This document shows positions 1,695 to 21,075 of a stretch of 21,075 nucleotides of DNA, in pieces. The notes beneath the pieces are model-generated. The model worked only from the letters and a program-made list of their open reading frames with translations, was not told where the DNA came from and searched no databases. A program made the translations under genes and the position numbers. This stretch comes from a virus. The stretch is from the IMG/VR virus record IMGVR_UViG_3300008448_009956, positions 1 to 21,075 of that record; one strand, 5' to 3'. Within the stretch, counting starts at the first letter, position 1, and the number at the start of each line of letters is the position of its first letter.

Positions 1695-2003
1695 ATGCCT
1701 TCTAGATATCAGAACATACCAATCACTAAAGCAGACGTAACAGGAAGTCAATACTATCAGACTAACGTGTACCCTACTATACAACCAACCGATAGTGATT
1801 ATTATGTTATTACCACAGTAGAAGATAGATTAGACCTCATAGCATTAGATTTTTACCAAGATCAAAGCCTATGGTGGGTAATTGCTTCTGCAAATGCATT
1901 ACCGGGAGATTCTCTATACCCTCCTATTGGAGTACAGTTAAGAATCCCGACAGACATTAAAACAATTTTGGATAACTATACCTTGATAAATAATGGCTAT
2001 TGA
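1695..2003 (+). CDS. Baseplate wedge protein, gp53/LysM-like
   Basis: A 102-residue protein whose residues 35-85 match the LysM-like pattern of T4 gp53 and tail protein X families. It reads as a Y..I...D.LD.IA..FY segment, then SLWWVIASANAL, then a G.....PP.G..LRIP ending. In T4, gp53 helps join baseplate wedges around the hub; that role is inferred here. The protein is much shorter than T4 gp53 (about 196 residues) and consists of little besides this domain. The last codons overlap the hub gene start by 11 bp, suggesting coupled translation. No Shine-Dalgarno is visible before the ATG, only a run of T and A. An alternative reading is a general LysM tail protein that stabilises the hub. Confidence 0.7.
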   Translation: MPSRYQNIPITKADVTGSQYYQTNVYPTIQPTDSDYYVITTVEDRLDLIALDFYQDQSLWWVIASANALPGDSLYPPIGVQLRIPTDIKTILDNYTLINNGY

Positions 2004-5000
2004 TAAGTTTACTAAGTTATCGAATGTTATTGGTGCTCCTTTTCCTGAGTACGTTCTAAGACAATTGTCTATTAGAGCGTATCGGAGTAGTACAGGAAAC
2101 ATATCTCAATTCGGAGTTCGTACAAACGAAGAGCTTTTATATTTAGCTAATAAGACAGCATGGGTACGTTTTATTTCTTCTGTAGATTTAGAATTTCCGC
2201 CCGGTTCGAGTTATTCTACAACAGACTATAAAGGATATTTGAAAGCATTAGGAATAGAAAATTCAGGTATATACAACGATGAAAAAAGTCTTGCTAAGAA
2301 CTGGATTTTACAAGCAGGAACTTCTATTCAGAACGGAAACGGAGTTACTCTAAGACAAGGATTAGGTCCTAACGGAGCTTACGGACTAGGAGGGACAGAA
2401 GAATTAGGCTATAGGCCTATGCCTGGTTTAAGCTCTATAACCGTAGATACAGCAGGTAGGTTAGGATCTCTTAGAACAGCTACTATCAATTTCCAGGTTT
2501 GGAACATGAATCAGCTTAATGTTATCGAAGCTTTATATTTCAGACTAGGATACTCTATGTTACTCGAGTGGGGACACACTCAGTACTTTAAGAACTACGG
2601 CAAAGATTTACAGACTGAAACTACAGAGGGAGTTTTTGTTTCAAAAGAGGTCTACGGAATTAACGATCCGTTTAGAAATAATAGAAGAAAAGAAGACATA
2701 CAGCAGGAAATAGCAGCCAAGAGATACGAAACTAGCGGCAATTATGATGGCATGTTAGGAATAGTGGTTAACTTCAACTGGTCTTACAACCAAGAAGGAG
2801 GATACGATTGCTCAGTAAAGCTAGTAGGAATGGGAGCGATAATAGATTCGGTGAGGATTAATCAAGCCTACACTTTACCTCCCGGTATTCTAAAAAAATT
2901 TAAAAACAGTGAGGATGCGATTGCAGCCTACGTGAGAAGAGTAGCAGAGCAAGCTGCAAAAGATGCTATTAAAAAAGCAGGAAGCCCAGGACCTGGCTCT
3001 GAACCACCACCTATTGACCCAGCACCGAAAAATAGGAGTGAATTATTAGCGCGTGAGAAAAAGTACGATAATTTTAATGGAGGCGATGCAGCATTTCAGA
3101 ATACATACAGTCCCCTGTCTTTTCCTGCAGTCAATCCTACAGTTGATAATTATCAAAGATTTAATGGAACGTCGATAGACTATATTGCAGCTTTTAGAAC
3201 TCCGCAAACAGGAATTACCGCTTTTGATAGTAAGGAAGCACAAACTAAGTATGGAGGTTTATATTTAAACCGCGGTGGACAGTTTATTTATGTTGGAAAC
3301 GCTCCAACTCCTATAAAATTAGACATTAAACTTATCTCCAGATTTATAGAAGGCATACAGGTAGACGACCGCAGTCTCGACCCAGGATTACCGAGAATCT
3401 CAGCAGGATTTGCTTCCGGATGGAAACAAGTATACCCGGGAGGTGCTACCTTCTTAGTACCTTTAAGAGCAGAGGTAGGACGTCGAGGCTATGATTTCAA
3501 CGGTTTTACTGCAGCTCTTGCTTGGCAGTTATCCGTAAAATCAGAAGAAGTAAACGAAGGTGTAAGAATAGCGACATCGAATAATTATGTATCACTAGTC
3601 GATACTCCACAGGCTACAAGATCTTCTTCTAATGCCTCTCTTAATAACAGAAAATGGGAAGATACTTTAAAAGTTAGTGACGGAACAGAATACAATGTTT
3701 TTGTTGATTTTAACTACACAGTACCGGTAGGAGATGCATTGAACCTCTTTCAAACTAGTTTAATAGAGGTCGTAGATGCTATAGCTAAGTTTAGCAGTAG
3801 CGACGGCCAAGCATTACTGTCTAAAGTCGATTTTATAGGAGGTCCAACTAGTCCTTCTCTAGCTACTTTCGAGATTGGGTTTCAAATAACTGTAAGATCT
3901 TATTTTAAAGGAGGAACTCCAAATGCAGGACAGATAGCTTCGTTTACAAGAAACAATATACCAAAAGATAGTAACGGAAACTATTACCAAGATTACCCGG
4001 GAAAAATAACCTTTAAAACAAATAATCCGGCTTTTATTTTAGGACCTGGAACGCCGCCTGCTGCTGGTCCAACATCTAATACAACTACTGCTGCCGATCA
4101 AGGATCAAGTGCTGCTGCTGAACAGGTTGCAACAGATAAACAAGTTAGTTCGGATATTGGATTTGAATCTGCTTTACATGCAATGCTTACAACTGTTCAA
4201 ACTGTAGCTCAAGCACAAGCAATTAAAAGTAAAGCAGGAATAGTAGTTGTACCTATTACAGAAGATACAAAGCAGTTTTTTAAAGGGGGTGCTCTAGATG
4301 GAGTATTAGATCTAACCGGTACACAGACTGTACCTACTACTTTTGATTTAAAATTGTATGCAGCAAAAGGATTTAGCAGTCAATTGATGACCAATCCTGA
4401 GAACTTCAATAACATACCGTACGTTGGAGGAGATAAGGATAAACCAGACTTTGCAAAGCTCTGCCAATCTGTTGTTATAAAGTACTTACAGAATAACATA
4501 GACCAAGTACAGTACCCGGGACAATACCAAACCTACATACCATTAGGGTACTTACTAGCCTTTATAAACAATATGTGTTTGTTTTACGATACGAAAGAGA
4601 AACAAACTAATGCAACAACGCCACCTCCTTCAGGAAATCAAAAACGCCCGTACGTTTATTTAGACTTTAACCCAGAAACAAATTTCTGTTTAACCTCCCC
4701 GGAACAATTTTCTGTAGATCCGAATATTTGCATAGTACCGGCTAACTTAACTCAAAAGCAATATCTAAGTATTTTCCCTGAAAATATACGGCCTAAAAAT
4801 CCATGGAATCCAGACAGTGCTAATCTACTTACACAGGAAATAGTTAAGAGTGGGTTAGGTTATAAAGGTAAAGATAGTACTTACCAAGGTAAGACGATGC
4901 ATATCCTAGTATGTACACAGTACCTGCTTAAACTGCTAAAAGAGTTTTCTACTGGAAATCCTCAACATGCTGTTGCTCTGCAACCTTACCTAGATAGAAT

Positions 5001-6597
5001 AATGAAAGATATTAATAAATCTCTAGGTAATACAAACCTATTTAGAGTTGCGTACAGAGATGATACTAACACTGTTCAGATACAGGACGATCAGTATGTA
5101 CCACGTTTACTTGAAGATAAAACTGTACTTGAAAGAACAACATTCTTAGAAAAACTACAAGAAAAATCTCTAGAGTCAGGAGAGTTACCTCTTTTTGCAT
5201 CACAGATACAAGGAGAGAAAGGTCCTCTCGCTATTCCTTCCTTAGGCATAGCTAGAGAGATGCAATTAAGAACTGTGATGTCTACTAAGATGGCCAGCAT
5301 GCTAGCAATATCTGCACAAGCTGCTACAAGCTCCATAAACGCAACAGACCACTCGGAGTTTAGTTGGTTAAATCAAAACTTTAAAGATAGGTATAAACCT
5401 TATGTAGAGGATTCTAGTAAGTCTAGTGGAACACCTCCTCCTCCGAATAAAGTTGATAAGACTAACAACCAATCTTCAAATACGCCGCCTGTCGTTAAAG
5501 CTAACGATCAAGAAGCAGCAGATAAGTTTGACGATCATGTACAAAGCGTATACAAAAATTATAGGTTATTAGAAGATGCCATTAATGCACAGAAGAACTA
5601 CTACATCGAAAGAATGTCAAAAGTAAAATCAGAAGATGCTGTAACTTCTGCTGCTCCTTTTATTCCTGCAGAGATAGAAATAACTATGGACGGTATTAGT
5701 GGAATTATAATGGGTAATGCGTTTAATATTCCACCACAGAGACTTCCAAACACTTATAAGCAGAATGGATTTCCGCGAGTAGGTTTTATTGTAAACGGAC
5801 TAACTCATACTGTAGAGAATAACGAATGGGTGACCAAGATAAAAGGTCAGATGATTAAGTTAAGAGAGCAAAGCGGCTTAAAAGCTTCTGTAGCGATTCC
5901 TACCGGTAAACAGACAGACAATCCTTTGAACGGAAGTACAGGAGGCGGTGCTTTAGTAGCAGGAGGCGGAACCGTAGATTTTACTGCCGGCACTTGCACG
6001 AGACAGTCTTTAGCAGCTGTGAACAGACGTGCAGCTGAAATTCAAGCTTTAAAGAAAGCTTTAATAGAGGGAGGTATAACAGGAAAATACGCTTTAGCTT
6101 CTATTATAGCAGTAGCAGGAGGAGAATCAGGATGGGATCCTGAAAAAATAGAAAGTTATAAGTACAGTGATACGCAGTTTGCAACTTTGTTTGGACTTTC
6201 TCAAGATCAACAACAGAGAGCAATAGTAGCTCGTAATAAAAATGACGGCCCGGGAGTCTTTGCTATCATTTACGGAGAAAGACAGAGAGCAGGTAATCGT
6301 AACGCTGAAGATGGACGAAAGTATTACGGTAGAGGTTATATGCAACTTACAGGGTGGGAAAATTACGACGTAATGGGAAGAGATACCGGTTTAGATTTAG
6401 TAAACAATCCGGATCTCGTTGCAAGCAAACAGTACGCAGGAAAGGTAGCAGCGGCTTATTATAAAAGGAGAATTGGAAATGTAGATCAGAACGATCCAGA
6501 TTATATGAATAAAGCAGTAGCAGCTACAGGTAAACCTGTTCGCCCAGAAGTAAAAGCTGATTATTATGCCTGTCTTATCGAGTCAAACTTAATATAA
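1993..6597 (+). CDS. Giant baseplate hub protein with C-terminal GH19 lysozyme domain
   Basis: At 1534 residues this is the largest gene in the window. Residues 1-310 hold a conserved-looking baseplate segment (RPMPGLSSITVDTAGRLGSL, then EALYFRLGYSMLLEWGHT). Low-complexity Pro/Ser/Thr linkers near residues 329-345, 684-712 and 1141-1172 divide it into modules. Residues 1257-1290 carry a gp27-type hub strand pattern (GFIVNGLTHTVENNEWVTKI). A Gly-rich linker at 1315-1334 leads into a GH19 chitinase/lysozyme-like domain (1335-1534), with candidate catalytic E1378 in GGESGWDP and the signature GRGYMQLTG at 1446-1454. By analogy with T4 gp5 and gp27, it should form the spike hub and cut peptidoglycan during DNA entry. 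T4 uses a separate GH24 lysozyme, so a GH19 fused to such a long hub is unusual. The ATG overlaps the upstream stop by 11 bp. Confidence 0.8.
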   Translation: MAIDKFTKLSNVIGAPFPEYVLRQLSIRAYRSSTGNISQFGVRTNEELLYLANKTAWVRFISSVDLEFPPGSSYSTTDYKGYLKALGIENSGIYNDEKSLAKNWILQAGTSIQNGNGVTLRQGLGPNGAYGLGGTEELGYRPMPGLSSITVDTAGRLGSLRTATINFQVWNMNQLNVIEALYFRLGYSMLLEWGHTQYFKNYGKDLQTETTEGVFVSKEVYGINDPFRNNRRKEDIQQEIAAKRYETSGNYDGMLGIVVNFNWSYNQEGGYDCSVKLVGMGAIIDSVRINQAYTLPPGILKKFKNSEDAIAAYVRRVAEQAAKDAIKKAGSPGPGSEPPPIDPAPKNRSELLAREKKYDNFNGGDAAFQNTYSPLSFPAVNPTVDNYQRFNGTSIDYIAAFRTPQTGITAFDSKEAQTKYGGLYLNRGGQFIYVGNAPTPIKLDIKLISRFIEGIQVDDRSLDPGLPRISAGFASGWKQVYPGGATFLVPLRAEVGRRGYDFNGFTAALAWQLSVKSEEVNEGVRIATSNNYVSLVDTPQATRSSSNASLNNRKWEDTLKVSDGTEYNVFVDFNYTVPVGDALNLFQTSLIEVVDAIAKFSSSDGQALLSKVDFIGGPTSPSLATFEIGFQITVRSYFKGGTPNAGQIASFTRNNIPKDSNGNYYQDYPGKITFKTNNPAFILGPGTPPAAGPTSNTTTAADQGSSAAAEQVATDKQVSSDIGFESALHAMLTTVQTVAQAQAIKSKAGIVVVPITEDTKQFFKGGALDGVLDLTGTQTVPTTFDLKLYAAKGFSSQLMTNPENFNNIPYVGGDKDKPDFAKLCQSVVIKYLQNNIDQVQYPGQYQTYIPLGYLLAFINNMCLFYDTKEKQTNATTPPPSGNQKRPYVYLDFNPETNFCLTSPEQFSVDPNICIVPANLTQKQYLSIFPENIRPKNPWNPDSANLLTQEIVKSGLGYKGKDSTYQGKTMHILVCTQYLLKLLKEFSTGNPQHAVALQPYLDRIMKDINKSLGNTNLFRVAYRDDTNTVQIQDDQYVPRLLEDKTVLERTTFLEKLQEKSLESGELPLFASQIQGEKGPLAIPSLGIAREMQLRTVMSTKMASMLAISAQAATSSINATDHSEFSWLNQNFKDRYKPYVEDSSKSSGTPPPPNKVDKTNNQSSNTPPVVKANDQEAADKFDDHVQSVYKNYRLLEDAINAQKNYYIERMSKVKSEDAVTSAAPFIPAEIEITMDGISGIIMGNAFNIPPQRLPNTYKQNGFPRVGFIVNGLTHTVENNEWVTKIKGQMIKLREQSGLKASVAIPTGKQTDNPLNGSTGGGALVAGGGTVDFTAGTCTRQSLAAVNRRAAEIQALKKALIEGGITGKYALASIIAVAGGESGWDPEKIESYKYSDTQFATLFGLSQDQQQRAIVARNKNDGPGVFAIIYGERQRAGNRNAEDGRKYYGRGYMQLTGWENYDVMGRDTGLDLVNNPDLVASKQYAGKVAAAYYKRRIGNVDQNDPDYMNKAVAATGKPVRPEVKADYYACLIESNLI

Positions 6598-7313: not shown

Positions 7314-8615
7314 ATGTACTTTGTTGTCGAAACAGAAGAGCAGTTAAGCAAGCTTACTCTCCCTGAAAAATGCTTTATCGATCTAGTTTCTCTTTCAGAA
7401 GAAACTCACCCAACACTCACCTCACCGTGTGTACTCTACTATAACGATTTCGAAAAAGGGTACATTATTCCAATTAATCATTCAGAAGCATTTTCAATTA
7501 GTTCCGAGAAAATGCAGGAATTTCTAAAAGACATTCCGGTAGTCTATCTTCTTGATAAGAAGTGGCATTCGTACTTTTTGGATTTACCGCAAGCTATTGA
7601 TCTCTACTTTACCGTCCTTGACATAGACGGAGATATTAAAGACTTTCAATGTTATACGAACGTACATCTAGACTTTAATAACAAATTTAAATACTCAGCA
7701 GAAGCTAATACGCTCGTTCCGATTTCTAAGCATTACGAGAAATGCGAATGTATGTTCGAAGCCGTAAAACCTTATGTTGGACAGGAAAGTAATACAGAAT
7801 GGCAGAGTAAATACGTAGAGGCGTATAAATGGGTGGAAGAACAGGGTCTCGCTATAGATGAACGGGTTTTTGATAAGTTCTTCGAACCCGTATGGAAAGG
7901 TAGGTCTGTGATAAATAACGTGATATACACAAGCTATAACCTTTATAACATAACCTCACGTCCTACGAATGCTTTTAATGGAATTAATTTTTTAGCATTT
8001 AATAAGGAGAATGGTTCACGAGCTGCTTTTATCCCGCAGAACGATGCATTTGTAGAATTCGATTTCGATGGATACCACATTCGATTGATTGCAAATATGC
8101 TCGGAGTTGAGATTCCAACTAACGATTCCATTCATACCGTTCTCGGTAGAATGTATTTCGGTAAAGAAGAATTAACACCGGAAGAATATCAAGAATCTAA
8201 GAAAATTACGTTTAGACAGCTCTACAACGGAATTGAGGATCAATACAAAGAACTTGAACTATTTAGGGAGATTGCAGAGTTTATAGATGCAATGTGGACA
8301 GAGTATAGGCGCACAAAGAGACTTATTCTCCCGAACGGAAGAAAGTTAACAGGTAAGGAGTTTACTCCGCAAAAGCTTTTCAACTATTACGTACAATGTC
8401 TTGAAACCGTTAATAACGTTAAGAAACTCATAGCTCTCAAGGAGTTACTGCAAGATAAGAAGAGTAAAGTAGTACTCGTTGTGTATGATTCTATACTCAT
8501 CGACTATTCAGCAGAAGATGAAAAAGGTCTGCTTATGCAAATCAAGAATATATTAGAATCTGACGGATATAGAATAAAAGCACAGAAAGGGTATAACTAC
8601 GACTTTTCCAAGTAA
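7314..8615 (+). CDS. Divergent family A DNA polymerase, polymerase domain only
   Basis: A 433-residue protein whose C-terminal half contains the three family A polymerase motifs. Motif A at 250-261 keeps the metal-binding Asp (D250) and the Arg and Ala that follow, but a His (H255) stands where E. coli Pol I has Glu710. Motif B keeps K296, F300 and Y304, matching K758, F762 and Y766. Motif C keeps D392 (equivalent to D882) but has YDS in place of HDE. The N-terminal ~200 residues show no recognisable 3'-5' exonuclease motifs, so proofreading may be encoded elsewhere; Rhodothermus phage RM378 is a known case of a split family A polymerase. It is followed by gp32-like, UvsX and helicase genes, consistent with being the replicative enzyme. 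The start lies in an AGGTTATG context. Confidence 0.75.
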   Translation: MYFVVETEEQLSKLTLPEKCFIDLVSLSEETHPTLTSPCVLYYNDFEKGYIIPINHSEAFSISSEKMQEFLKDIPVVYLLDKKWHSYFLDLPQAIDLYFTVLDIDGDIKDFQCYTNVHLDFNNKFKYSAEANTLVPISKHYEKCECMFEAVKPYVGQESNTEWQSKYVEAYKWVEEQGLAIDERVFDKFFEPVWKGRSVINNVIYTSYNLYNITSRPTNAFNGINFLAFNKENGSRAAFIPQNDAFVEFDFDGYHIRLIANMLGVEIPTNDSIHTVLGRMYFGKEELTPEEYQESKKITFRQLYNGIEDQYKELELFREIAEFIDAMWTEYRRTKRLILPNGRKLTGKEFTPQKLFNYYVQCLETVNNVKKLIALKELLQDKKSKVVLVVYDSILIDYSAEDEKGLLMQIKNILESDGYRIKAQKGYNYDFSK

Positions 8616-11062: not shown

Positions 11063-11524
11063 ATGACACGAATTAACGCAGGTATTTCACCCAGACAGCT
11101 TACTAATAAGCATCTTATTGCAGAACATCGAGAGCTTAAACGTATTCCTAACGTTGTAGCTAAAGGTAGATGTAATCTTAAGAATATTCCTTCTAAGTTC
11201 ACACTCGGTAAAGGTCATGTATCATTCTTTTACGACAAGCTAGGCTACTTAAAAGACAGGTACAGAGACCTTTACAACGAGTGTATTGCTAGAGGCTTTA
11301 ACGTACAAAACTACGAGGCTTCTTGGAACGATGTTCCGCAAGAGTTAATGAACGGGTATACTCCTACGGAAGACGACGTACGTATAATCACCGAAAGGAT
11401 AGCTGAGAGATTAGCTAATCCGATTGCAAAACAAAAGAAGAATGGACTACAGGAAAATGTTCGCAGAGATGGAGAGTCAGAAGCCGCTAGAGTTACACAA
11501 GAACAGCAGAGTATTAATTGTTGA
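11063..11524 (+). CDS. denV: DenV-like pyrimidine dimer DNA glycosylase (T4 endonuclease V)
   Basis: A 153-residue homologue of T4 endonuclease V, which excises UV-induced cyclobutane pyrimidine dimers and nicks the abasic site. The N terminus MTRIN is the same as T4, giving T2 as the attacking amine after Met removal. R23, E24 and R27 in AEHRELKR match T4 R22, E23 and R26 with a one-residue shift. GKGHVSFFYDKLGYLKDRYRDL matches the T4 GAGHVTFFYDKLEFL region in the pieces GHV.FFYDKL and the following helix. The DVPQELMNGY segment matches the T4 DIPQEF. The C terminus differs: it lacks the T4 WYKYYGKA end and instead runs on as a polar tail encoded in DNA that also starts the next gene. Confidence 0.88.
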   Translation: MTRINAGISPRQLTNKHLIAEHRELKRIPNVVAKGRCNLKNIPSKFTLGKGHVSFFYDKLGYLKDRYRDLYNECIARGFNVQNYEASWNDVPQELMNGYTPTEDDVRIITERIAERLANPIAKQKKNGLQENVRRDGESEAARVTQEQQSINC

Positions 11525-14198: not shown

Positions 14199-14233
14199 AT
14201 ACCGAATAAAGTTATAAACTATAACGGTGATCG

Positions 14234-14263
14234 TAGGATCTCCGAATGAAAACTCTATCTTTA
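14234..14263 (+). promoter_or_regulatory. Candidate promoter before the ribonucleotide reductase gene
   Basis: TATCTTTA at 14256-14263 matches seven of eight positions of TAnnTTTG. The upstream box is poor: TAGG at 14234-14237 with an 18 bp spacer. Transcription would start near 14269, before the ATG at 14287. It lies in the 88 bp gap at 14199-14286, in which I see no tRNA and no room for a full cobalamin riboswitch. Confidence 0.4.
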
Positions 14264-14286
14264 AAATTTTAAAACAAACATGCAAA

Positions 14287-16143
14287 ATGGACATCTCGCA
14301 GAGCATCTTAAGTGACATTACAGTGTACATGAAGTACGCAAAGTTCAACCCAGAAGTACAGAGAAGAGAATCTTGGTACGAACTAGTAGATCGGAATAAA
14401 CAAATGCACTTAAAAAAATTTCCACATTTAGCAGAGGAAATTGAAGATGCCTATACGTTCGTGTACGATAAAAAAGCTTTACCTTCAATGCGTTCTATGC
14501 AGTTTGCAGGTAAGCCTATTGAGATTAGTCCCAACCGTATTTACAACTGTGCCTATTTACCTATCGATGATTGGAGAGCATTTAGTGAAACAATGTTTCT
14601 CTTACTAGGAGGTACAGGTGTAGGATATTCTGTACAAAAACATCACGTAGATCAGCTCCCTGAAATTAGAAAACCAGACGCTAAGAAGCATCGCCGCTTT
14701 TTGATCGGTGATAGTATTGAAGGGTGGGCTGATGCTGTTAAAGTATTAGTACGTGCTTACTTCGAAGGAGGATCAACTCCAGTATTTGATTTTTCTGATA
14801 TTCGTCCAAAAGGTGCTCAATTAATTACCTCTGGCGGTAAAGCACCCGGTCCTCAACCTCTTAAGGAATGCTTGTTAAAGCTTCAAGGAATTCTTGATAG
14901 TAAAGATAATAACGATAAACTAACCCCGGTAGAAGTACATGACATGGTTTGCCATATTGCAGATGCAGTACTGACTGGCGGTATTCGTAGAGCAGCTCTT
15001 ATTAGTCTTTTTAGTGCTGACGATGAGGATATGATTGCAGCTAAATCTGGTGCTTGGTGGGAATTGAACCCACAAAGAGGCCGTGCTAATAATTCAGCCG
15101 TACTACTTCGTAATAAAGTGACTGAAGAGTTCTTTATGTCTCTCTGGGATAAAATTAAAGCTTCAGGAGCTGGAGAACCGGGTATTTACCTTTCTAATGA
15201 TAAAGACTGGGGAACTAATCCGTGCTGTGAAATCGCACTACGTCCTTATCAGTTCTGTAATCTCTGTGAAGTAAACGTATCAGACGTAGTAGATCAACAA
15301 GATTTAAATGAGAGAGTAAAAGCAGCTGCATTTATTGGAACACTTCAAGCCTCCTATACTAACTTTCACTACCTACGTCCAGTATGGCAGCGTACTACTG
15401 AAAAGGATGCATTGATCGGTGTAGGTATGACCGGTATTGGATCTGGTGCAGCTCAAAAATTAGACCTCAAAGAAGCTACTAAGATTGTAAAAGAGGAAAA
15501 TGAACGTGTAGCCGAGTTGATCGGAATTAATGCTGCTGCAAGATGCACTACTATTAAACCTTCAGGTACTTCTTCTCTTACTCTCGGAACTTCTTCTGGT
15601 ATCCATGCTTGGCATAACGACTACTACGTACGTCGAATTCGCGTAGGAAAGAACGAAGCTATCTACAACTACCTTGCAATCTATCATCCAGAGCTTATCG
15701 AAGACGAGTATTTCCGTCCGCACGATACAGCTGTTATTTCTGTACCGCAGAAAGCACCGCAAGGAGCTATTCTCCGTCACGAGTCTGCTTTAGATCTTCT
15801 AGAAAGAGTAAAATTCTTCTATCAGAACTGGATTAAGCCTGGACACCGTACAGGCCAAAATACTCACAACATATCTGCTACAGTTTCTATCAAAGCAGAA
15901 GAATGGGAAGAAGTAGGAAAGTGGATGTGGGAGAATCGTAAATTTTATAACGGACTCTCAGTACTCCCTTACGACGGAGGTACTTACAAACAAGCTCCTT
16001 TTGAGGATATTACAGAAGAGCAATTTAAAGAAATGTCCAAGTACCTGCATGATATCGATCTATCTAAGGTAGTTGAGATTGTTGATAATACAAACTTAAT
16101 GGGAGAGGTAGCTTGTGCAGGAGGTGCTTGTGAAATAGTCTAG
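14287..16143 (+). CDS. nrdJ: Monomeric class II (adenosylcobalamin-dependent) ribonucleoside-triphosphate reductase
   Basis: A 618-residue enzyme converting ribonucleotides to deoxyribonucleotides for phage DNA synthesis. It matches the Lactobacillus leichmannii RTPR layout. C88 in NRIYNCAYL pairs with C324 (equivalent to C119/C419). The thiyl-radical Cys is C313 in TNPCCEI, with E315 two residues on, and C313 and C324 are 11 apart exactly as C408 and C419. The C-terminal swinging pair C610 and C615 (ACAGGACEIV) matches the family. LLGGTGVGYSVQ and GTSSLTLGTSSGIHA are further signature segments. It is shorter than the 739-residue L. leichmannii enzyme, so the regulatory insertion is probably reduced. 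I chose the ATG at 14287; a GTG at 14227 would add 20 unconvincing residues. No small subunit or thioredoxin is nearby, as expected for this class. Confidence 0.9.
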   Translation: MDISQSILSDITVYMKYAKFNPEVQRRESWYELVDRNKQMHLKKFPHLAEEIEDAYTFVYDKKALPSMRSMQFAGKPIEISPNRIYNCAYLPIDDWRAFSETMFLLLGGTGVGYSVQKHHVDQLPEIRKPDAKKHRRFLIGDSIEGWADAVKVLVRAYFEGGSTPVFDFSDIRPKGAQLITSGGKAPGPQPLKECLLKLQGILDSKDNNDKLTPVEVHDMVCHIADAVLTGGIRRAALISLFSADDEDMIAAKSGAWWELNPQRGRANNSAVLLRNKVTEEFFMSLWDKIKASGAGEPGIYLSNDKDWGTNPCCEIALRPYQFCNLCEVNVSDVVDQQDLNERVKAAAFIGTLQASYTNFHYLRPVWQRTTEKDALIGVGMTGIGSGAAQKLDLKEATKIVKEENERVAELIGINAAARCTTIKPSGTSSLTLGTSSGIHAWHNDYYVRRIRVGKNEAIYNYLAIYHPELIEDEYFRPHDTAVISVPQKAPQGAILRHESALDLLERVKFFYQNWIKPGHRTGQNTHNISATVSIKAEEWEEVGKWMWENRKFYNGLSVLPYDGGTYKQAPFEDITEEQFKEMSKYLHDIDLSKVVEIVDNTNLMGEVACAGGACEIV

Positions 16144-16349
<206 letters not shown>

Positions 16350-16366: not shown

Positions 16367-16831
16367 ATGAGTAATTATAAGTCTACTAAGTTATTTGATG
16401 GCTATTCTACTTGTTTTCGTCAATGGAAAGCCGAAGGCACGCATTGTAAATTTTTACACGGATACGCAGTATCCTTTCGAGTCTGGTTTGAAGGAGAGCT
16501 AGACGAAAGAAATTGGGTATGGGATTTTGGCGGAATGAAACGCGCAAAGAATACCATTCAAGGTAAAACCCCTAAAGACTTTTTTACCTGGTTGCTTGAT
16601 CATACGACAGTAGTATCCGAAGACGATCCTTATCTAGAGCAGTTTAAACAAATGGATAAAGAAGGTATTATTCAGTTACGTATACTTCCTGCTGTAGGAT
16701 GTGAGAGGTTTGCTGAATACCTGTACGGAGTTATTAACGAATTTTTAGCGGTAGAGACCAGCGGACGAGTAAAAGCTGTAAAAGTAGAAGTATACGAACA
16801 CGAAAGGAATAGTGCTAGCTACGAAGGCTAA
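16367..16831 (+). CDS. queD: QueD-like 6-carboxy-tetrahydropterin synthase
   Basis: A 154-residue member of the PTPS/QueD fold that would convert dihydroneopterin triphosphate to 6-carboxy-tetrahydropterin, the second step to preQ0. The catalytic Cys is C27 in THCKFLHGY; the active-site His lies in LLDHTTVV and the C-terminal Glu in VEVYEHER. VWDFGGMK matches the family's DF..LK segment. Numbering happens to match E. coli QueD, so the metal ligands can be compared: H31 is kept, but H16 is C16 (STCFRQW) and H33 is Y33. I have a general memory of this HGY variant among alphaproteobacterial and marine phage proteins, so it is likely a subfamily rather than a broken enzyme. queE follows 374 bp downstream, and queC is further on. 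Confidence 0.8.
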   Translation: MSNYKSTKLFDGYSTCFRQWKAEGTHCKFLHGYAVSFRVWFEGELDERNWVWDFGGMKRAKNTIQGKTPKDFFTWLLDHTTVVSEDDPYLEQFKQMDKEGIIQLRILPAVGCERFAEYLYGVINEFLAVETSGRVKAVKVEVYEHERNSASYEG

Positions 16832-16848
16832 TTAAAAGTATAAAGGTT

Positions 16849-16971
16849 ATGTTTGAAGCAATTACACATGCATTAGGTCTTTGCGGAGACTCTCATCCTA
16901 CTTTGGTAGCTTTTTTGTTGGAATATCCACAAATAAATCATATCTTTAATTACATTAAAACATGGAGGTAA
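16849..16971 (+). CDS. Small hypothetical protein, 40 residues
   Basis: A short frame starting in an AGGTTATG context identical to that of several firm genes here, 17 bp after queD. It encodes MFEAITHALGLCGDSHPTL and then a hydrophobic, Tyr- and Ile-rich end. The LGLCGDSHP piece looks like a conserved motif rather than random translation, with Cys, Asp and His that could bind a metal. The good start context and tight fit between neighbours support it. A strong promoter candidate (16918-16948) lies inside the frame, which argues for caution. No function is assigned. Confidence 0.5.
   Translation: MFEAITHALGLCGDSHPTLVAFLLEYPQINHIFNYIKTWR
16918..16948 (+). promoter_or_regulatory. Candidate Bacteroidota-type promoter upstream of the queE pair
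   Basis: TTGG at 16918-16921, preceded by TG, stands 19 bp before TATCTTTA at 16941-16948. This is among the best matches in the window. Transcription would start near 16954, about 20 bp before the ATG at 16975, and would cover the small Lys-rich gene and queE. It lies within a 40-residue reading frame. Confidence 0.5.
16964..16968 (+). promoter_or_regulatory. Shine-Dalgarno-like GGAGG, unusual for this window
   Basis: GGAGG ends 6 bases before the ATG at 16975, ideal spacing for a classical ribosome-binding site. Most other starts here lack one and use A/T-rich contexts, so this is an exception. It also encodes the last residues of the upstream 40-residue frame. Confidence 0.5.
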
Positions 16972-16974
16972 ACT

Positions 16975-17202
16975 ATGAAGTGTTTAAAAAACTCAAAAAC
17001 AGGTACTATTATTCGTGTACCTGATCAGCAAGCAAATCAAATGACTGGTTCAACTTGGAAGTATGTTTCTAAGACTGAATGGAAAGAATCGAATCGTTCT
17101 AGTAAAGAAGAGGTAGTTTCTGAAGAACCTGAAAAAAAGAAGAATCAAAAACAAGACCTGCCCGATAACGGAAAGAAATTTGTAAAAACAAGAAAGAAGT
17201 AG
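16975..17202 (+). CDS. Small hypothetical Lys-rich protein
   Basis: A 75-residue protein with a short ordered-looking N terminus (MKCLKNSKTGTIIRVPDQQA, then TWKYVSKTEWKE) and a charged, probably disordered C-terminal half rich in Lys, Glu and Ser. The VSKTEWKES ending of the ordered part recalls small phage proteins that act as adaptors, but no family is recognised. It lies 3 bp before queE and shares its candidate promoter. It has the only clear Shine-Dalgarno-like site in the window. No membrane segment or enzyme motif is visible. Confidence 0.6.
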   Translation: MKCLKNSKTGTIIRVPDQQANQMTGSTWKYVSKTEWKESNRSSKEEVVSEEPEKKKNQKQDLPDNGKKFVKTRKK

Positions 17203-17205
17203 TAT

Positions 17206-18042
17206 ATGAGTAAAATAGATCCAAATAAGCTTTTAATTTCTAGTGACTTCTACTCTGTCCAAGGTGAGGGTATCTCGTCTGGAGTGCCCTCCTACTTTGT
17301 TCGTTTAGGTATTTGCAACCTAACCTGCGGTATGAGTAGAGCGTTTGCTAATATGCTTGCTAAAGAACAGAAACTAGAAGACGGAGAAATATTCGTAGGT
17401 GATTTGCATGCTGAAGGTAAAGCAACCTGGACCTGCGACTCTACAAGTCAATGGATGTGGCGCGGTGAAGATAAAGAGTTTGAATACTTGATTAACCGCT
17501 GGAAAGAGCAAGGTATTTACGATGATATCCTAGAAGGTAATATTCATATTATCTGGACTGGCGGTGAACCAACAATCAAAGGACATCAAGAATCAATCGT
17601 CAAGTTTACTAACCATTGGCTAGGTCGACACCTAGATAACACTGTTAGACCATACTACGAAATAGAAACTAACGGTACAGTTTATATTGACGATAAGCTA
17701 TTCAAGATGCTCGATCAGATTAACTGCTCACCTAAACTATCTAACTCAGGAATGAGTGAAAAACAACGTATTGTTCCCGAAGCTATTAAACGTATAATGC
17801 AACATGGAAATTACCAATTCAAGTTTGTTATTTCGACTGAAGAAGATGTACAAGAACTTTTCCGTGACTTTGTCGTACCATTTAGCATACCGCTTTCCAA
17901 AGTGGTTTGTATGCCAGGACTAGACGATGTTAAAGACTTCGAAGAACGTACTCAATTCTGTTTGGAAATGGCTAAGAAGTATAAGTTCCGTGGATTGACT
18001 CGTTTGCATATTGCTGCTTGGAATAAAACGTTAAATGTATAG
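17206..18042 (+). CDS. queE: QueE-like 7-carboxy-7-deazaguanine synthase, radical SAM
   Basis: A 278-residue radical SAM enzyme that would contract 6-carboxy-tetrahydropterin to 7-carboxy-7-deazaguanine. Family marks include SVQGEG near residue 17, SYFVRLGICNLTC, the SAM-binding GGEP at 119-122, YEIETNGT, and SPKLSNSG. The cluster motif is split: C37-x3-C41 is followed by 35 residues before C77 in TWTCDS, whereas the common form is CxxxCxxC with CxWCDT. The extra ~33 residues (GMSRAFANMLAKEQK onward) look like a real insertion because reading is open and flanking motifs stay in frame. All three Cys are kept, so activity is plausible. It follows a small Lys-rich gene by 3 bp; QueD lies upstream and QueC downstream. 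Confidence 0.83.
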   Translation: MSKIDPNKLLISSDFYSVQGEGISSGVPSYFVRLGICNLTCGMSRAFANMLAKEQKLEDGEIFVGDLHAEGKATWTCDSTSQWMWRGEDKEFEYLINRWKEQGIYDDILEGNIHIIWTGGEPTIKGHQESIVKFTNHWLGRHLDNTVRPYYEIETNGTVYIDDKLFKMLDQINCSPKLSNSGMSEKQRIVPEAIKRIMQHGNYQFKFVISTEEDVQELFRDFVVPFSIPLSKVVCMPGLDDVKDFEERTQFCLEMAKKYKFRGLTRLHIAAWNKTLNV

Positions 18043-18045
18043 GTT

Positions 18046-18312
18046 ATGAATGACCGCAGATCATTTTTTAAAGGACTAGCAGCATTCGCTAGTGGAGTAG
18101 TAGCAGCTAAAGTAGCATCGTATACTCCAAAGAAAGAAGAACCAAAAGAAGTAATGATGGTATCTAGTACAATTACTCTTAAACATGGAGAGGAAGAATA
18201 TCATCCGCTTGTAGTAAAGAAAACAGACGCTGATGGAATGATATACGAACAGCCTAAAACTCCATTTCATATAGCTGGTGTAACACCTAAAATTAGAGAA
18301 GCAAACGTATAA
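18046..18312 (+). CDS. Small protein with a twin-arginine-type signal
   Basis: An 88-residue protein that begins MNDRRSFFKGLAAFASG, matching the Tat consensus (S/T)RRxFLK with R4 and R5. A moderately hydrophobic Ala-rich stretch (about 10-25) and a polar segment with several Lys follow. The remaining ~55 residues show no catalytic motif (VMMVSSTITLKHGEEEYHP and so on) and no Cys. If the signal works, the host Tat system would export it folded or anchor it in the membrane, which is unusual for a phage accessory protein. The gene starts 3 bp after queE in an AGGTTATG context. It could instead be a short N-terminally anchored protein; function unknown. Confidence 0.6.
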   Translation: MNDRRSFFKGLAAFASGVVAAKVASYTPKKEEPKEVMMVSSTITLKHGEEEYHPLVVKKTDADGMIYEQPKTPFHIAGVTPKIREANV

Positions 18313-18313
18313 T

Positions 18314-18457
18314 ATGAATAAAGAACAAGCAACAACAGCTTTACTTGAGCTTTACGAAAACCAGATTACGGACTTAACTGTAATGTCTAAAATTGAACTT
18401 GGTGATGATGTAATTAAAGAAATTAACCGACTAAAAACTATCATCACTAATAATTAG
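18314..18457 (+). CDS. Small hypothetical helical protein, 47 residues
   Basis: An ATG one base after the upstream stop, in an ATAATATG context like that of the Smr gene, opens a 47-residue frame. The product (MNKEQATTALLELYENQITD and then a Lys/Glu/Ile-rich end) is predicted to be mainly helical, with heptad-like spacing of Leu and Ile. No motif is recognised. Tight packing between neighbours and the Ile/Lys-rich composition typical of this window support it being real. Confidence 0.55.
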   Translation: MNKEQATTALLELYENQITDLTVMSKIELGDDVIKEINRLKTIITNN

Positions 18458-18474
18458 ACCCTAGAATTTATAAT

Positions 18475-18681
18475 ATGGAAGAGCTAGATCTTCACGGCTT
18501 GAAGCATAGTGAAGTAGAAGACCGAGTAGAAGATTTTATTTTAAGAGCTAATACTCCTTTTAAGATCATAACAGGTAATTCAGAGGAGATGAAACGGATA
18601 ACTTTACGACTGTTAGATCATTATGATTTTAAATTTTATAGCCCTGCACATAATGCAGGAGAAATAATCGTAACAGACTAG
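18475..18681 (+). CDS. Stand-alone Smr-domain protein
   Basis: A 68-residue protein that is essentially one Smr domain, the C-terminal domain of MutS2 and a nuclease or nucleic-acid-binding fold. The signature LDLHG is at residues 4-8, followed by a helix (HSEVEDRVEDFIL), the strand and loop FKIITGNS corresponding to the TGxG region, and a final AGEIIV strand. The canonical TGxG reads TGNS, so the second Gly is replaced. Stand-alone Smr domains occur in marine myoviruses; activity there is not established to my knowledge. It starts 17 bp after the preceding small gene and ends 3 bp before the epimerase. Confidence 0.75.
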   Translation: MEELDLHGLKHSEVEDRVEDFILRANTPFKIITGNSEEMKRITLRLLDHYDFKFYSPAHNAGEIIVTD

Positions 18682-18684
18682 ACT

Positions 18685-19524
18685 ATGCATGCATTAGTAA
18701 CAGGTGGGTGTGGATTTATAGGACATGCTTTATCTAAGGAGCTTGTTAAACGTGGATGGAAAGTCGACATTATGGATAATTTGTCTATAGGAAAAGAATC
18801 TAAACTTGCCGACGGGTGTAACTTTCTAGGAGGTGATATTAGAGCGATTGAGAATATTAAAGATTCTAACTATCAAGTAATTTTTCACTTAGCTGCTCTA
18901 AGCAGGATTCAACCCTCTTTTGAAAATCCACGACTTACTTTTTCTACAAACGTAGATGGAACTAGACAGGTAGTAGAGTACGCTATACGTAATAACTGTA
19001 AAGTAGTATACGCAGGCTCTTCTTCTCGACATCATAACCCTGAACTATCTCCTTATGCTATGACCAAACACATGGGAGAGGAGTGGATTAAGATGTATAA
19101 GAAAGTTTTTAAATTAAATGCAGAAATTACTAGATTTTATAACGTGTACGGTCCGGGTGAGTTAGTAGATTCTAATATGGCAGCAGTGATTGGACTGTGG
19201 CGTGCAGCTATTAAGAAAGGAGAGTCTATTAAGATTCACGGAGATGGAGAACAGCGTAGAGACTTTACGCACGTAGAGGATATTGTAGATGGATTAATTC
19301 GTGTAGCAGAAAGTGATGAGAAGCATGAAGATGCTTGGGAATTAGGTACAGGGACAAACTACTCTATAAACGAAGTTGCAGAAATGTTTGGCAATGTTAA
19401 AAAGGAGTATGTAGAGGATGTGCAGGGAAATTATAGAAAAACATTACGTCTTAACAACGATGCTATTGAAAGATTAAAATGGAATCCTCAAGATAGATTA
19501 AAAGATTATATTCATTCGTTATGA
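18685..19524 (+). CDS. NAD-dependent sugar epimerase/dehydratase
   Basis: A 279-residue extended short-chain dehydrogenase. The Rossmann motif GGCGFIG occupies residues 7-13 and an acidic residue follows the second strand (DIMDNLSIG). The active-site YxxxK is Y124-K128 in SPYAMTKH, with SSS upstream, and RFYNVYGPGE and GDGEQRRDFTHVEDIVDG are typical of nucleotide-sugar epimerases. It is shorter than the usual 310-340 residues, with a trimmed C-terminal substrate domain. The substrate cannot be read from sequence. Phage enzymes of this class may modify host surface sugars or supply sugars for phage glycans. It overlaps the next gene by 4 bp (ATGA). Confidence 0.8.
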   Translation: MHALVTGGCGFIGHALSKELVKRGWKVDIMDNLSIGKESKLADGCNFLGGDIRAIENIKDSNYQVIFHLAALSRIQPSFENPRLTFSTNVDGTRQVVEYAIRNNCKVVYAGSSSRHHNPELSPYAMTKHMGEEWIKMYKKVFKLNAEITRFYNVYGPGELVDSNMAAVIGLWRAAIKKGESIKIHGDGEQRRDFTHVEDIVDGLIRVAESDEKHEDAWELGTGTNYSINEVAEMFGNVKKEYVEDVQGNYRKTLRLNNDAIERLKWNPQDRLKDYIHSL

Positions 19525-19766
19525 TTAAAGAGTCTACAGTATTCTGGACCTGTAAATATTGCGGAAAAGATACTTCACATGTTGAAGCAGATTATTTGAG
19601 CGGATATAACCATTTAAGTTGCGTTTTAAAGTACGAAGTACAGTCTAAAGAAGTGAAACCTAAATACCTAAACATCCCGTTTGATTTGATTCATAACACA
19701 CCTAATGATTTCAAATTAGGAGAAAAAGTAAGACGATTATATTATGAGCAAAAAAACAACAGCTGA
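19521..19766 (+). CDS. Small zinc-type protein, CxxC and HxxC
   Basis: An 81-residue protein whose first half has C11-x2-C14 and H31-x2-C34 (WTCKYCGKDTSH then YNHLSC), a likely zinc site of treble-clef type as in many small DNA- or RNA-binding phage proteins. The second half is Lys/Tyr-rich with KYLNIPFDLIHNTPNDF and no further Cys. Function unknown. Its ATG overlaps the epimerase stop by 4 bp and its end overlaps the next gene by 23 bp, so translation of the three genes is probably coupled. Confidence 0.65.
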   Translation: MIKESTVFWTCKYCGKDTSHVEADYLSGYNHLSCVLKYEVQSKEVKPKYLNIPFDLIHNTPNDFKLGEKVRRLYYEQKNNS

Positions 19767-20001
19767 AGAGTATTACGAGGCTTTAGGTAACAGTGCCGGC
19801 ACTCTGTTTTATCTGAAACGCAAAAACGGATCTAAGACTGAGTTTGTTTTTGAAGCGCTAAATATTGATGCTAAGAAAAAAGATTTAACAATTAGGATAC
19901 TGAAGCGAGCTATGAACGATTCAGACTTCATAGCTTTTCCCGGTACTCCAGAGTTTTATGACTTTATTAACGAAGAAGTTGACGATTCAAAAAATAAATA
20001 G
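19744..20001 (+). CDS. Hypothetical protein, 85 residues
   Basis: Starts inside the end of the preceding zinc-type gene (23 bp overlap) in an ATTATG context. The product is mixed alpha/beta with a Lys-rich core (TLFYLKRKNGSKTEFVFEAL, then KKKDLTIRILKRAMND) and an acidic C terminus (NEEVDDSK). It has no Cys, signal or membrane segment. I do not recognise the family; the basic middle could bind nucleic acid, but this is only a guess. Gene packing and open length support it being coding. Confidence 0.6.
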   Translation: MSKKTTAEEYYEALGNSAGTLFYLKRKNGSKTEFVFEALNIDAKKKDLTIRILKRAMNDSDFIAFPGTPEFYDFINEEVDDSKNK

Positions 20002-20009
20002 TATATTTA
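19979..20009 (+). promoter_or_regulatory. Weak candidate promoter before the small membrane protein gene
   Basis: TTGA at 19979-19982, preceded by AG, stands 19 bp before TATATTTA at 20002-20009. Box and spacing are good, but the ATG at 20013 lies only 4 bases downstream, so transcription would begin at or just after it. If used, translation might start from the next in-frame ATG at 20040. Confidence 0.3.
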
Positions 20010-20012
20010 AAT

Positions 20013-20249
20013 ATGACCTTTACTGTAACTGAAACGCAAATGTACACCGCTGTCTTACTACTACTAATGGTATTACAAGTATATCAATACAGGCTAATTA
20101 AGAAATTAGAAAAGGATAATTCAGACATATGGGCACAGTTAGGTACTCTGGTAGCTAACCTCACTACTCAAATGCTACAGATGCAAAAAGATATTAATAG
20201 TAAACAAGATAAAACCTCCGGTTCAGAAGCTAATCGGAATACAAAATAA
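20013..20249 (+). CDS. Small single-pass membrane protein with helical cytoplasmic tail
   Basis: A 78-residue protein with one hydrophobic segment at about residues 10-27 (YTAVLLLLMVLQVYQY), followed by a charged boundary (RLIKKLEKD). A long amphipathic helix with Leu/Met/Ile spacing comes next (WAQLGTLVANLTTQMLQMQK), likely a coiled coil, and then a polar end. The shape fits a holin-like, spanin-like or superinfection-type phage membrane protein, but none can be claimed. An internal ATG at 20040 would give a protein starting directly with the membrane segment. It lies 11 bp after its neighbour and 29 bp before queC. Confidence 0.65.
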   Translation: MTFTVTETQMYTAVLLLLMVLQVYQYRLIKKLEKDNSDIWAQLGTLVANLTTQMLQMQKDINSKQDKTSGSEANRNTK

Positions 20250-20265
20250 TACGCTTCTAACTTTA
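20234..20265 (+). promoter_or_regulatory. Candidate promoter before queC
   Basis: TAACTTTA at 20258-20265 matches seven of eight positions of TAnnTTTG. The upstream box is only fair: TCGG at 20234-20237 with a 20 bp spacer. Transcription would start near 20271, about 8 bp before the queC ATG. The -33 side lies in the end of the membrane protein gene. Confidence 0.4.
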
Positions 20266-20278
20266 ATTTGTTTAAATA

Positions 20279-21075
20279 ATGAAAAAACAAGCAGTACTTT
20301 CGCTCAGTGGAGGGATGGATAGCTCCACTTTATTGCTTCATCTACTTGCCAACGGCTATGAAGTTACAGCATTATCTTTTGATTACGGACAAAAGCACAA
20401 AGTAGAACTTGAGCGTGCTACATCGTTGGTAGAGTATATCAATGATAGGATGTTCTACACCAGACAAGACAACTATGTAAAACATCAGATTATTAAGTTA
20501 GATGGATTACAACAACTCCTTAACTCAGCTCTTGTAACAGGCGGTAAAGACGTTCCTGAGGGACATTACGAGCAAGACAATATGAAAGAGACTGTTGTGC
20601 CTAACCGTAATAAGATTTTTAGCTCCCTTATACAAGCAGTAGCGTTGTCTATAGCAACTAAAGAAGAAAGACAACACGTCGCTATTGCACTAGGTATTCA
20701 TGCTGGCGATCACGCTATCTATCCTGACTGTAGACAAGAGTTTCGTGATGCTGATATGACAGCGTTTAAAATTGGAAACTGGGATTCAGATTTAGTTAAT
20801 TTCTATACTCCGTACCTTGCTATGAATAAGTTTGATATTCTTAAAGATGGAGAGGTATGCTGTGAAGAGCTAGGTTTGGACTTCAACGAAGTGTATAAAC
20901 GTACTAACACCAGTTATAAGCCGATTAAGCATTACTACCGTCCTGAAACAAACGCGTACAAGTGGTATTCTGATTATAAGTCTGCTGCGTCGGTAGAACG
21001 TATTGAAGCTTTTATTAAGCTAGAACGTCCCGATCCTGTAGAGTATGCTAATGAAACCGGACCTGTAAAATGGGA
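20279..21075 (+). CDS. queC: QueC-like 7-cyano-7-deazaguanine synthase, 3'-truncated by the window edge
   Basis: At least 265 residues of an ATP-dependent enzyme that would turn 7-carboxy-7-deazaguanine into preQ0; the frame is still open at the right edge. The PP-loop SGGMDSS at residues 10-16, SFDYGQKH, VVPNRNKIFSS and YPDCRQEF are diagnostic of QueC. The usual zinc site, a TWSCY segment followed by CxxCxxC, is replaced by RTNTSYKP and then KWYSDYKSAASVERIEAF. None of the expected four Cys is present, although ER.EAF after it is conserved. Typical QueC is about 220-235 residues, so a C-terminal extension is also present (LERPDPVEYANETGPVKW onward). It is the third preQ0 gene in the window. 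The start is the ATG in TTTAAATAATG. Confidence 0.85.
   Translation, partial: MKKQAVLSLSGGMDSSTLLLHLLANGYEVTALSFDYGQKHKVELERATSLVEYINDRMFYTRQDNYVKHQIIKLDGLQQLLNSALVTGGKDVPEGHYEQDNMKETVVPNRNKIFSSLIQAVALSIATKEERQHVAIALGIHAGDHAIYPDCRQEFRDADMTAFKIGNWDSDLVNFYTPYLAMNKFDILKDGEVCCEELGLDFNEVYKRTNTSYKPIKHYYRPETNAYKWYSDYKSAASVERIEAFIKLERPDPVEYANETGPVKW

Follow-up and report, generated by a model that had tools for sequence, protein, structure and literature searches.

The virus fragment IMGVR_UViG_3300008448_009956, a stretch of 21,075 bases that we call the window and of whose genome we found no longer record, carries queD, queE and queC, three genes of the pathway to 7-cyano-7-deazaguanine (preQ0). 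We read them as components of a module with which an Immutovirus-like phage hypermodifies its DNA with 7-deazaguanine and would protect it from host restriction, and we put the probability of this reading at about 0.8. A preliminary description of the window had named the three genes, and all are real open reading frames (ORFs) at the positions given below, with matches to Pfam or PHROG profiles far beyond chance. It had also called the encoded enzymes unusual, which is fair: against NCBIfam equivalog cut-offs they score 25 of 89 bits (QueD, TIGR03367), 43 of 260 bits (QueE) and 134 of 150 bits (QueC).

16367–16831, plus strand: queD, a 6-carboxytetrahydropterin synthase of a CxxxHGY variant (PF01242, 8e-15; phrog_2389, 1e-37)
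17206–18042, plus strand: queE, with its three cluster cysteines C37, C41 and C77 kept as CX3CX35C (phrog_2076, 2e-38; QueE entries lead its sequence matches in the PDB)
20279–21075 (contig end), plus strand: queC, with its zinc cysteines lost (PF06508, 3e-40; cut at amino acid 265 of about 290)

The source is an Immutovirus-like phage, and its host group is probably Bacteroidetes. The nearest cultured phage is Flavobacterium phage immuto (vB_FspM_immuto, Immutovirus, NC_055915), at 66% identity for QueC, 62% for QueD and 62% for the UvsX/RecA-like recombinase.

FolE and transglycosylase genes in relatives of the window

As the preliminary description had said, no FolE, QueF or transglycosylase gene lies within the window; the contig stops inside queC, and relatives carry these genes just past that point. 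It had proposed looking in the flanks for folE and for a gene resembling DpdA or tRNA-guanine transglycosylase (TGT), and in the relatives both were found. Our large relatives are 30 metagenome contigs of 110–197 kb and of unstated completeness. All 30 have FolE, and all 30 have a phage-type guanine transglycosylase, which is a protein of 260 amino acids (aa) with a TGT/DpdA fold in 25 of them and in the other five a DpdA some 416 aa long. These two forms do not overlap, a split with a chance of 7e-6 under random placement of phages that are not independent of one another. The presence of FolE and a transglycosylase in the relatives supports the earlier view that a phage preQ0 pathway here most likely serves DNA modification. 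QueD, QueE, QueC, FolE and QueF are also queuosine enzymes, and a queuosine role has been proposed by Hutinet et al. for phages without DpdA (PMC6884629). It is nevertheless highly unlikely that preQ0 or preQ1 (7-aminomethyl-7-deazaguanine) is made here to increase the queuosine content of host tRNA in infected cells and so improve translation: every large relative has the phage-type gene, none has a canonical TGT scoring over the Pfam cut-off (PF01702), and the 260-aa family occurs in Campylobacter phage CP220, whose DNA is wholly modified.

The 260-aa protein belongs to phrog_19058, a PHROG family listed with unknown function. Its AlphaFold model (pLDDT, the predicted local distance difference test score, 94.9) is matched to TGT by Foldseek with an E-value of 1e-7, and its top match in VIA is 7ui4, the DNA preQ0 insertase DpdA (Z 16.8, root-mean-square deviation 3.4, 234 aligned residues), in a tie with many tRNA TGTs; TGTs fill all of the top 50 VIA matches. 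The sole relevant PDB sequence match is a weak one (E=0.016) to a DNA-guanine transglycosylase. The motifs DNxxFE, QG, HLLG and DTSxP align with the 416-aa DpdA, DNxxFE corresponding to DSGGFQ and DTSxP to DSSSP. Residues D53 and D203, found in 118 of 118 family members, match the two catalytic aspartate positions of the TGT fold and, by analogy with TGT, are probably catalytic, and the TGT zinc motif CxCxxC appears in none of the 118. The 416-aa homologue scores 30 bits with PF01702, and 12 of 15 sequences carry CxxxCxxC. PF01702 was rejected as a transglycosylase detector because it misses the 260-aa family, whose gene we recognised by neighbourhood and fold. The label DpdA2, from a 2019 paper, was not adopted for this protein, as we found nothing showing that identity.

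The same family is present in Campylobacter phages CP220 and CPt10, and beside folE, queD and queE in Cellulophaga phage phiST. The deoxyguanosine of CP220 and CPt10 is reported to be 100% 2′-deoxy-7-amido-7-deazaguanosine (dADG) (PMC8306585). Their system shares the phrog_19058 transglycosylase (33–35% identity) and includes QueD and QueC, but its QueC keeps the zinc cysteines, its QueD lacks CxxxHGY and its genes are scattered.

Metal sites of QueC, QueE and QueD

The pathway itself is known, and the loss of the zinc site is what sets its QueC apart from other QueC enzymes. All four zinc cysteines (C188, C197, C200 and C203 in E. coli) are missing from each of the 115 family members, and TSYKP and SDYKSxxSVER stand in place of the C(x)8CxxCxxC motif; a four-cysteine zinc motif is a hallmark of canonical QueC, PF06508 cluster 1 (PMC13329287). 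Among the sequences sampled, this loss is confined to the lineage of the window and to immuto. Aligned with E. coli and phage QueC, the window protein keeps SGGxDS, YxQxHxxE, VPxRN, YPDC and Y213; these motifs make up the catalytic signature that was probed by mutagenesis of the E. coli enzyme (PMC13329287). Across the family the Ser, Arg and Tyr motif columns are occupied in 115/115 and the Cys of YPDC in 113/115, and the family also retains the Tyr that follows the position of the first zinc Cys. In the AlphaFold model of the window protein (pLDDT 85.6), a beta hairpin occupies the position of the zinc knuckle; the model aligns to B. subtilis QueC (3bl5) over residues 2–251 with a VIA Z of 18.4, against 13.3 or less for matches from outside the QueC family.

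With the canonical motif gone from all 115 proteins, one might suppose that this QueC no longer makes preQ0, and either stops at the amide 7-amido-7-deazaguanine (ADG) or ligates 7-carboxy-7-deazaguanine (CDG) to protein as Cap9/QatC do. That is quite improbable given what has been kept, since all canonical catalytic motifs remain, the Tyr beside the first zinc Cys position among them, and since zinc motifs are retained in Cap9 and QatC themselves. Zinc loss as a route to an amide end product was ruled out: CP220, with its dADG DNA, retains the zinc cysteines, so the loss does not track the amide, and QueF, which needs nitrile preQ0, goes with zinc-less QueC in 19/19 loci of the window clade. 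This constant company of QueF argues that zinc-less QueC would still make preQ0.

QueE and QueD also differ from their textbook forms. The radical-SAM cysteines C37, C41 and C77 of QueE are invariant across the window, E. coli, 9g, Seurat, nt-1 and HCTV-5 proteins, and the Pfam radical SAM match of the window QueE is marginal (E=0.04). Their spacing is CX3CX35C in 94 of 95 relatives instead of the standard CX3CX2C. Known QueE proteins of phages and archaeal viruses differ in this spacing, which is widened in HCTV-5, nt-1, phi38:2 and immuto. For QueD, alignment to the E. coli enzyme shows two of the three zinc histidines replaced, H16 by F17 and H33 by Y33. In the family columns the first is Phe in 131/141 and the second Tyr in 141/141, and C27, H31 and E110 are kept. 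The catalytic Cys, Asp-His and Glu (C27, D78-H79 and E144) are invariant when the window protein is aligned with QueD of E. coli and of phages, and H31 is kept as well. The QueD/PTPS-I signature CxxxHGH (PMC5041015) is thus absent, and CxxxHGY is found instead.

CxxxHGY QueD is a common functional variant. A genome-scale search with the lineage alignment found relatives with an FRQW...HC..LHGY motif in genomes that include those of cyanobacteria and Flavobacteriales. The CxxxHGY protein is the sole PF01242 match in six genomes that have a strong QueC, and so very probably acts as their QueD. The variant is further present in Pseudomonas phage Knedl, which has a full FolE-QueD-QueE-QueC-TGT module, and in Cellulophaga phages phiST and phi38:2, the latter reported as 7-deazaguanine-modified (PMC11515303). 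Three marine Flavobacteriales genomes (L335, L339 and L327) have a CxxxHGY QueD and no QueC over the cut-off.

The preliminary description held that all three enzymes depart from their standard metal sites, and suggested that this shared divergence marks one co-evolved lineage of the pathway. The first part holds for QueC, with four zinc cysteines lost, and for QueD, with its histidines replaced, but QueE departs only in cysteine spacing. The second part is not borne out, as only the zinc loss of QueC is specific to the lineage. Joint metal-site loss was ruled out as a co-evolved signature because both the QueD variant and the QueE spacing occur outside the lineage: CxxxHGY QueD is found in phages with a zinc-type QueC, such as phi38:2, and in bacteria with a canonical one, and HCTV-5 and phi38:2 combine widened QueE spacing with zinc-type QueC.

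Module types and the probable modified base

The modules of the relatives are of three types. In type I the transglycosylase lies upstream of queC, with no QueF and no formyltransferase, in 101/101 loci (some from the same contigs); counted over distinct QueC-bearing proteins with room downstream, QueF and formyltransferase are found in 0/53. In type II (31/31 loci) the transglycosylase directly follows queC, and after it come a bimodular QueF, a PurN-like formyltransferase, a kinase-like ORF and mostly FolE; QueF and formyltransferase are present in 19/19 testable loci. Because PF14489 alone is weak for QueF and confounded with FolE, whole proteins were used instead. Type III has no queC; its transglycosylase is the 416-aa DpdA or else a divergent 260-aa protein adjoining folE. 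Judging by the enzymes present, the products would be preQ0 in type I, preQ1 or formyl-preQ1 in type II and a CDG-like base in type III. Five large relatives (G008, G015, G022, G023 and G027; for example L234:1195-2445) lack QueC and have the 416-aa DpdA/TGT homologue in place of the 260-aa protein; with FolE and QueD, they may insert CDG or a derivative. Four loci (L072, L079, L044 and L229) have queD, queE and folE; no queC was found in them, and their folE is directly followed by a divergent 260-aa transglycosylase, an arrangement also seen in phiST.

By layout and synteny the window phage is assigned to type II. Between nrdJ and queC the window has no transglycosylase gene, the nrdJ identity fits, and the layout is shared with its nearest relative of the same arrangement (L082), the epimerase gene described below included. 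Identity of nrdJ to the window is 86–90% in most type II members, 67–68% in L088 and L107, and 66–71% in the sampled type I loci. The L082 transglycosylase starts with MTKISHEIPKQLF..., and its ATG overlaps the stop codon of queC. In a relative with a 94% identical QueD (L084), the order is queC, transglycosylase, QueF (QueF_N 88 bits, QueF 40 bits), formyltransferase (45 bits), kinase-like ORF, FolE and a dCTP-deaminase-like gene. The window phage would therefore most likely insert preQ1 or formyl-preQ1 into its DNA, and the end use, left open by the preliminary description, is less open than thought, since synteny places this phage in the type with QueF and formyltransferase. It is unlikely that it makes and inserts only preQ0 (or the amide ADG), as its sister type without QueF would. 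The uniform lack of QueF and formyltransferase in the 53 testable loci outside the window clade speaks for such an outcome, but the transglycosylase of that sister type is always upstream of queC, where the window has none, and the gene order, layout and nrdJ of the window fit the other type.

The scheme that we propose starts from gene identities, motifs, synteny and fold, which are directly observed. FolE (beyond the contig), QueD, QueE and QueC would convert GTP to preQ0, with QueC working without its structural zinc knuckle and with the modelled beta hairpin in its place. The short, zinc-free TGT-fold transglycosylase (phrog_19058, CP220 type), expected directly after queC, would swap DNA guanine for the 7-deazaguanine base. 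In the window sub-clade, bimodular QueF would reduce preQ0 to preQ1 and the formyltransferase would probably formylate its aminomethyl group, either step coming before or after insertion. The modified base would then shield phage DNA from host restriction.

Several points weigh against this scheme. The window stops inside queC, so that the transglycosylase, QueF and FolE of this phage lie outside the sequence; we infer these downstream genes, as well as a DNA rather than a tRNA target, the exact base and its protective role. A TGT/DpdA fold does not by itself distinguish a DNA from a tRNA target, the activity of zinc-less QueC is a prediction, and we found no nucleoside analysis for this lineage in the literature searched. 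QueF and the formyltransferase both score under their NCBIfam cut-offs (181 of 293 and 51 of 150 bits), and the latter could serve purine synthesis instead. Finally, the unstated completeness of the large records and the non-independence of the relatives as samples bear on all counts drawn from them.

Immuto provides the closest comparison. Its QueC is also zinc-less, and its genome has QueD, QueE, FolE, a gene annotated as DpdA, formyltransferase and QueF. However, its QueE is only 26% identical to that of the window and has another spacing, its queC lies about 11 kb from the rest of its pathway genes, and its transglycosylase and those found in relatives of the window fall into separate clades. 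The minimal phage set for preQ0 in DNA (dPreQ0), FolE-QueD-QueE-QueC-DpdA as in Rosebush and CAjan, has been described, as has the protection against restriction that it gives (PMC6884629). The present module shares the four preQ0 steps and a transglycosylase (QueD, QueE and QueC from the window, the rest from relatives). It differs in that the transglycosylase is of a different, shorter, zinc-free TGT branch, QueC is zinc-less, and QueF and formyltransferase are added in the window sub-clade. Cui et al. in 2023 reportedly assigned complete replacement of G to DpdA3 and formylation of preQ1 in DNA to DpdN. The 260-aa transglycosylase and the formyltransferase look like these two and may correspond to them, the support for DpdA3 being the link to CP220; to our knowledge, zinc-less QueC does not figure in that work. 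We found no description of the zinc-less QueC family or of position-dependent module types in the literature searched. Tentatively, and at somewhat less than even odds, we suggest that formyl-preQ1 replaces guanine by way of zinc-less QueC, and that near relatives exchange the transglycosylase (short and zinc-free, or a DpdA of about 416 aa) and the end product (preQ0, formyl-preQ1 or CDG) on a conserved FolE-QueD-QueE core.

Neighbouring genes and significance

Genes around the pathway include the following.

14227–16143, plus strand: nrdJ, class II (B12) ribonucleotide reductase, directly upstream and the clade marker used above (phrog_367, 3.5e-128)
16144–16344, plus strand: DUF5522 ORF, the conserved left neighbour of queD in relatives (PF17653, 1.6e-18)
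16975–17202, plus strand: ORF of 75 aa between queD and queE, in the same position in the syntenic relatives L084 and L082

Overall, the genes form a myovirus-like block of replication and structural functions: a baseplate gene that includes a GH19 domain and genes for a gp32-like protein, RecA-like recombinase, 5′-3′ exonuclease and DnaB helicase are followed by the B12-dependent reductase, DUF5522 and queDEC. No clear Shine-Dalgarno sequence was seen in the stretches 5′ of the window start codons, a weak hint that would suit a Bacteroidetes host. An NDP-sugar (nucleoside diphosphate sugar) epimerase gene (18685–19524) is inserted between queE and queC, as also in L082 and L034; it is elsewhere in L088 and L052, and is thus a mobile neighbour. 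The window also encodes a 1534-aa structural protein (1993–6597) with a C-terminal GH19 chitinase/lysozyme-type domain (PF00182), and a pyrimidine-dimer DNA glycosylase (11063–11524; PF03013, E=8e-14) that overlaps the start of the annotated exonuclease frame. A 433-aa ORF (7314–8615) matches only the C-terminal part of the phage DNA polymerase profile phrog_17, and the remainder of the polymerase is not adjacent to it.

Close relatives are present on hundreds of viral contigs. Four bacterial contigs from metagenome-assembled genomes (L316, L317, L318 and L328; Flavobacteriales, Pelagibacter and unclassified) encode this lineage's QueD and QueC. Two of these contigs also have a transglycosylase gene and folE, one has nrdJ and dnaB, and all four are probably phage contigs binned with their hosts. 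This is a family of freshwater phages in which guanine in DNA is probably replaced by a 7-deazaguanine against bacterial restriction enzymes.

The lineage supplies a naturally occurring QueC whose catalytic signature is complete and whose zinc site is missing, and which can serve to test whether canonical QueC needs its zinc. A gene-content key, made up of transglycosylase clade and position, QueF, formyltransferase and QueC loss, predicts the modified base for each related phage. The family phrog_19058 gains a likely function, and this 260-aa family may point to the transglycosylase of the Campylobacter CP220-type phages, which a 2019 survey counted as without DpdA.

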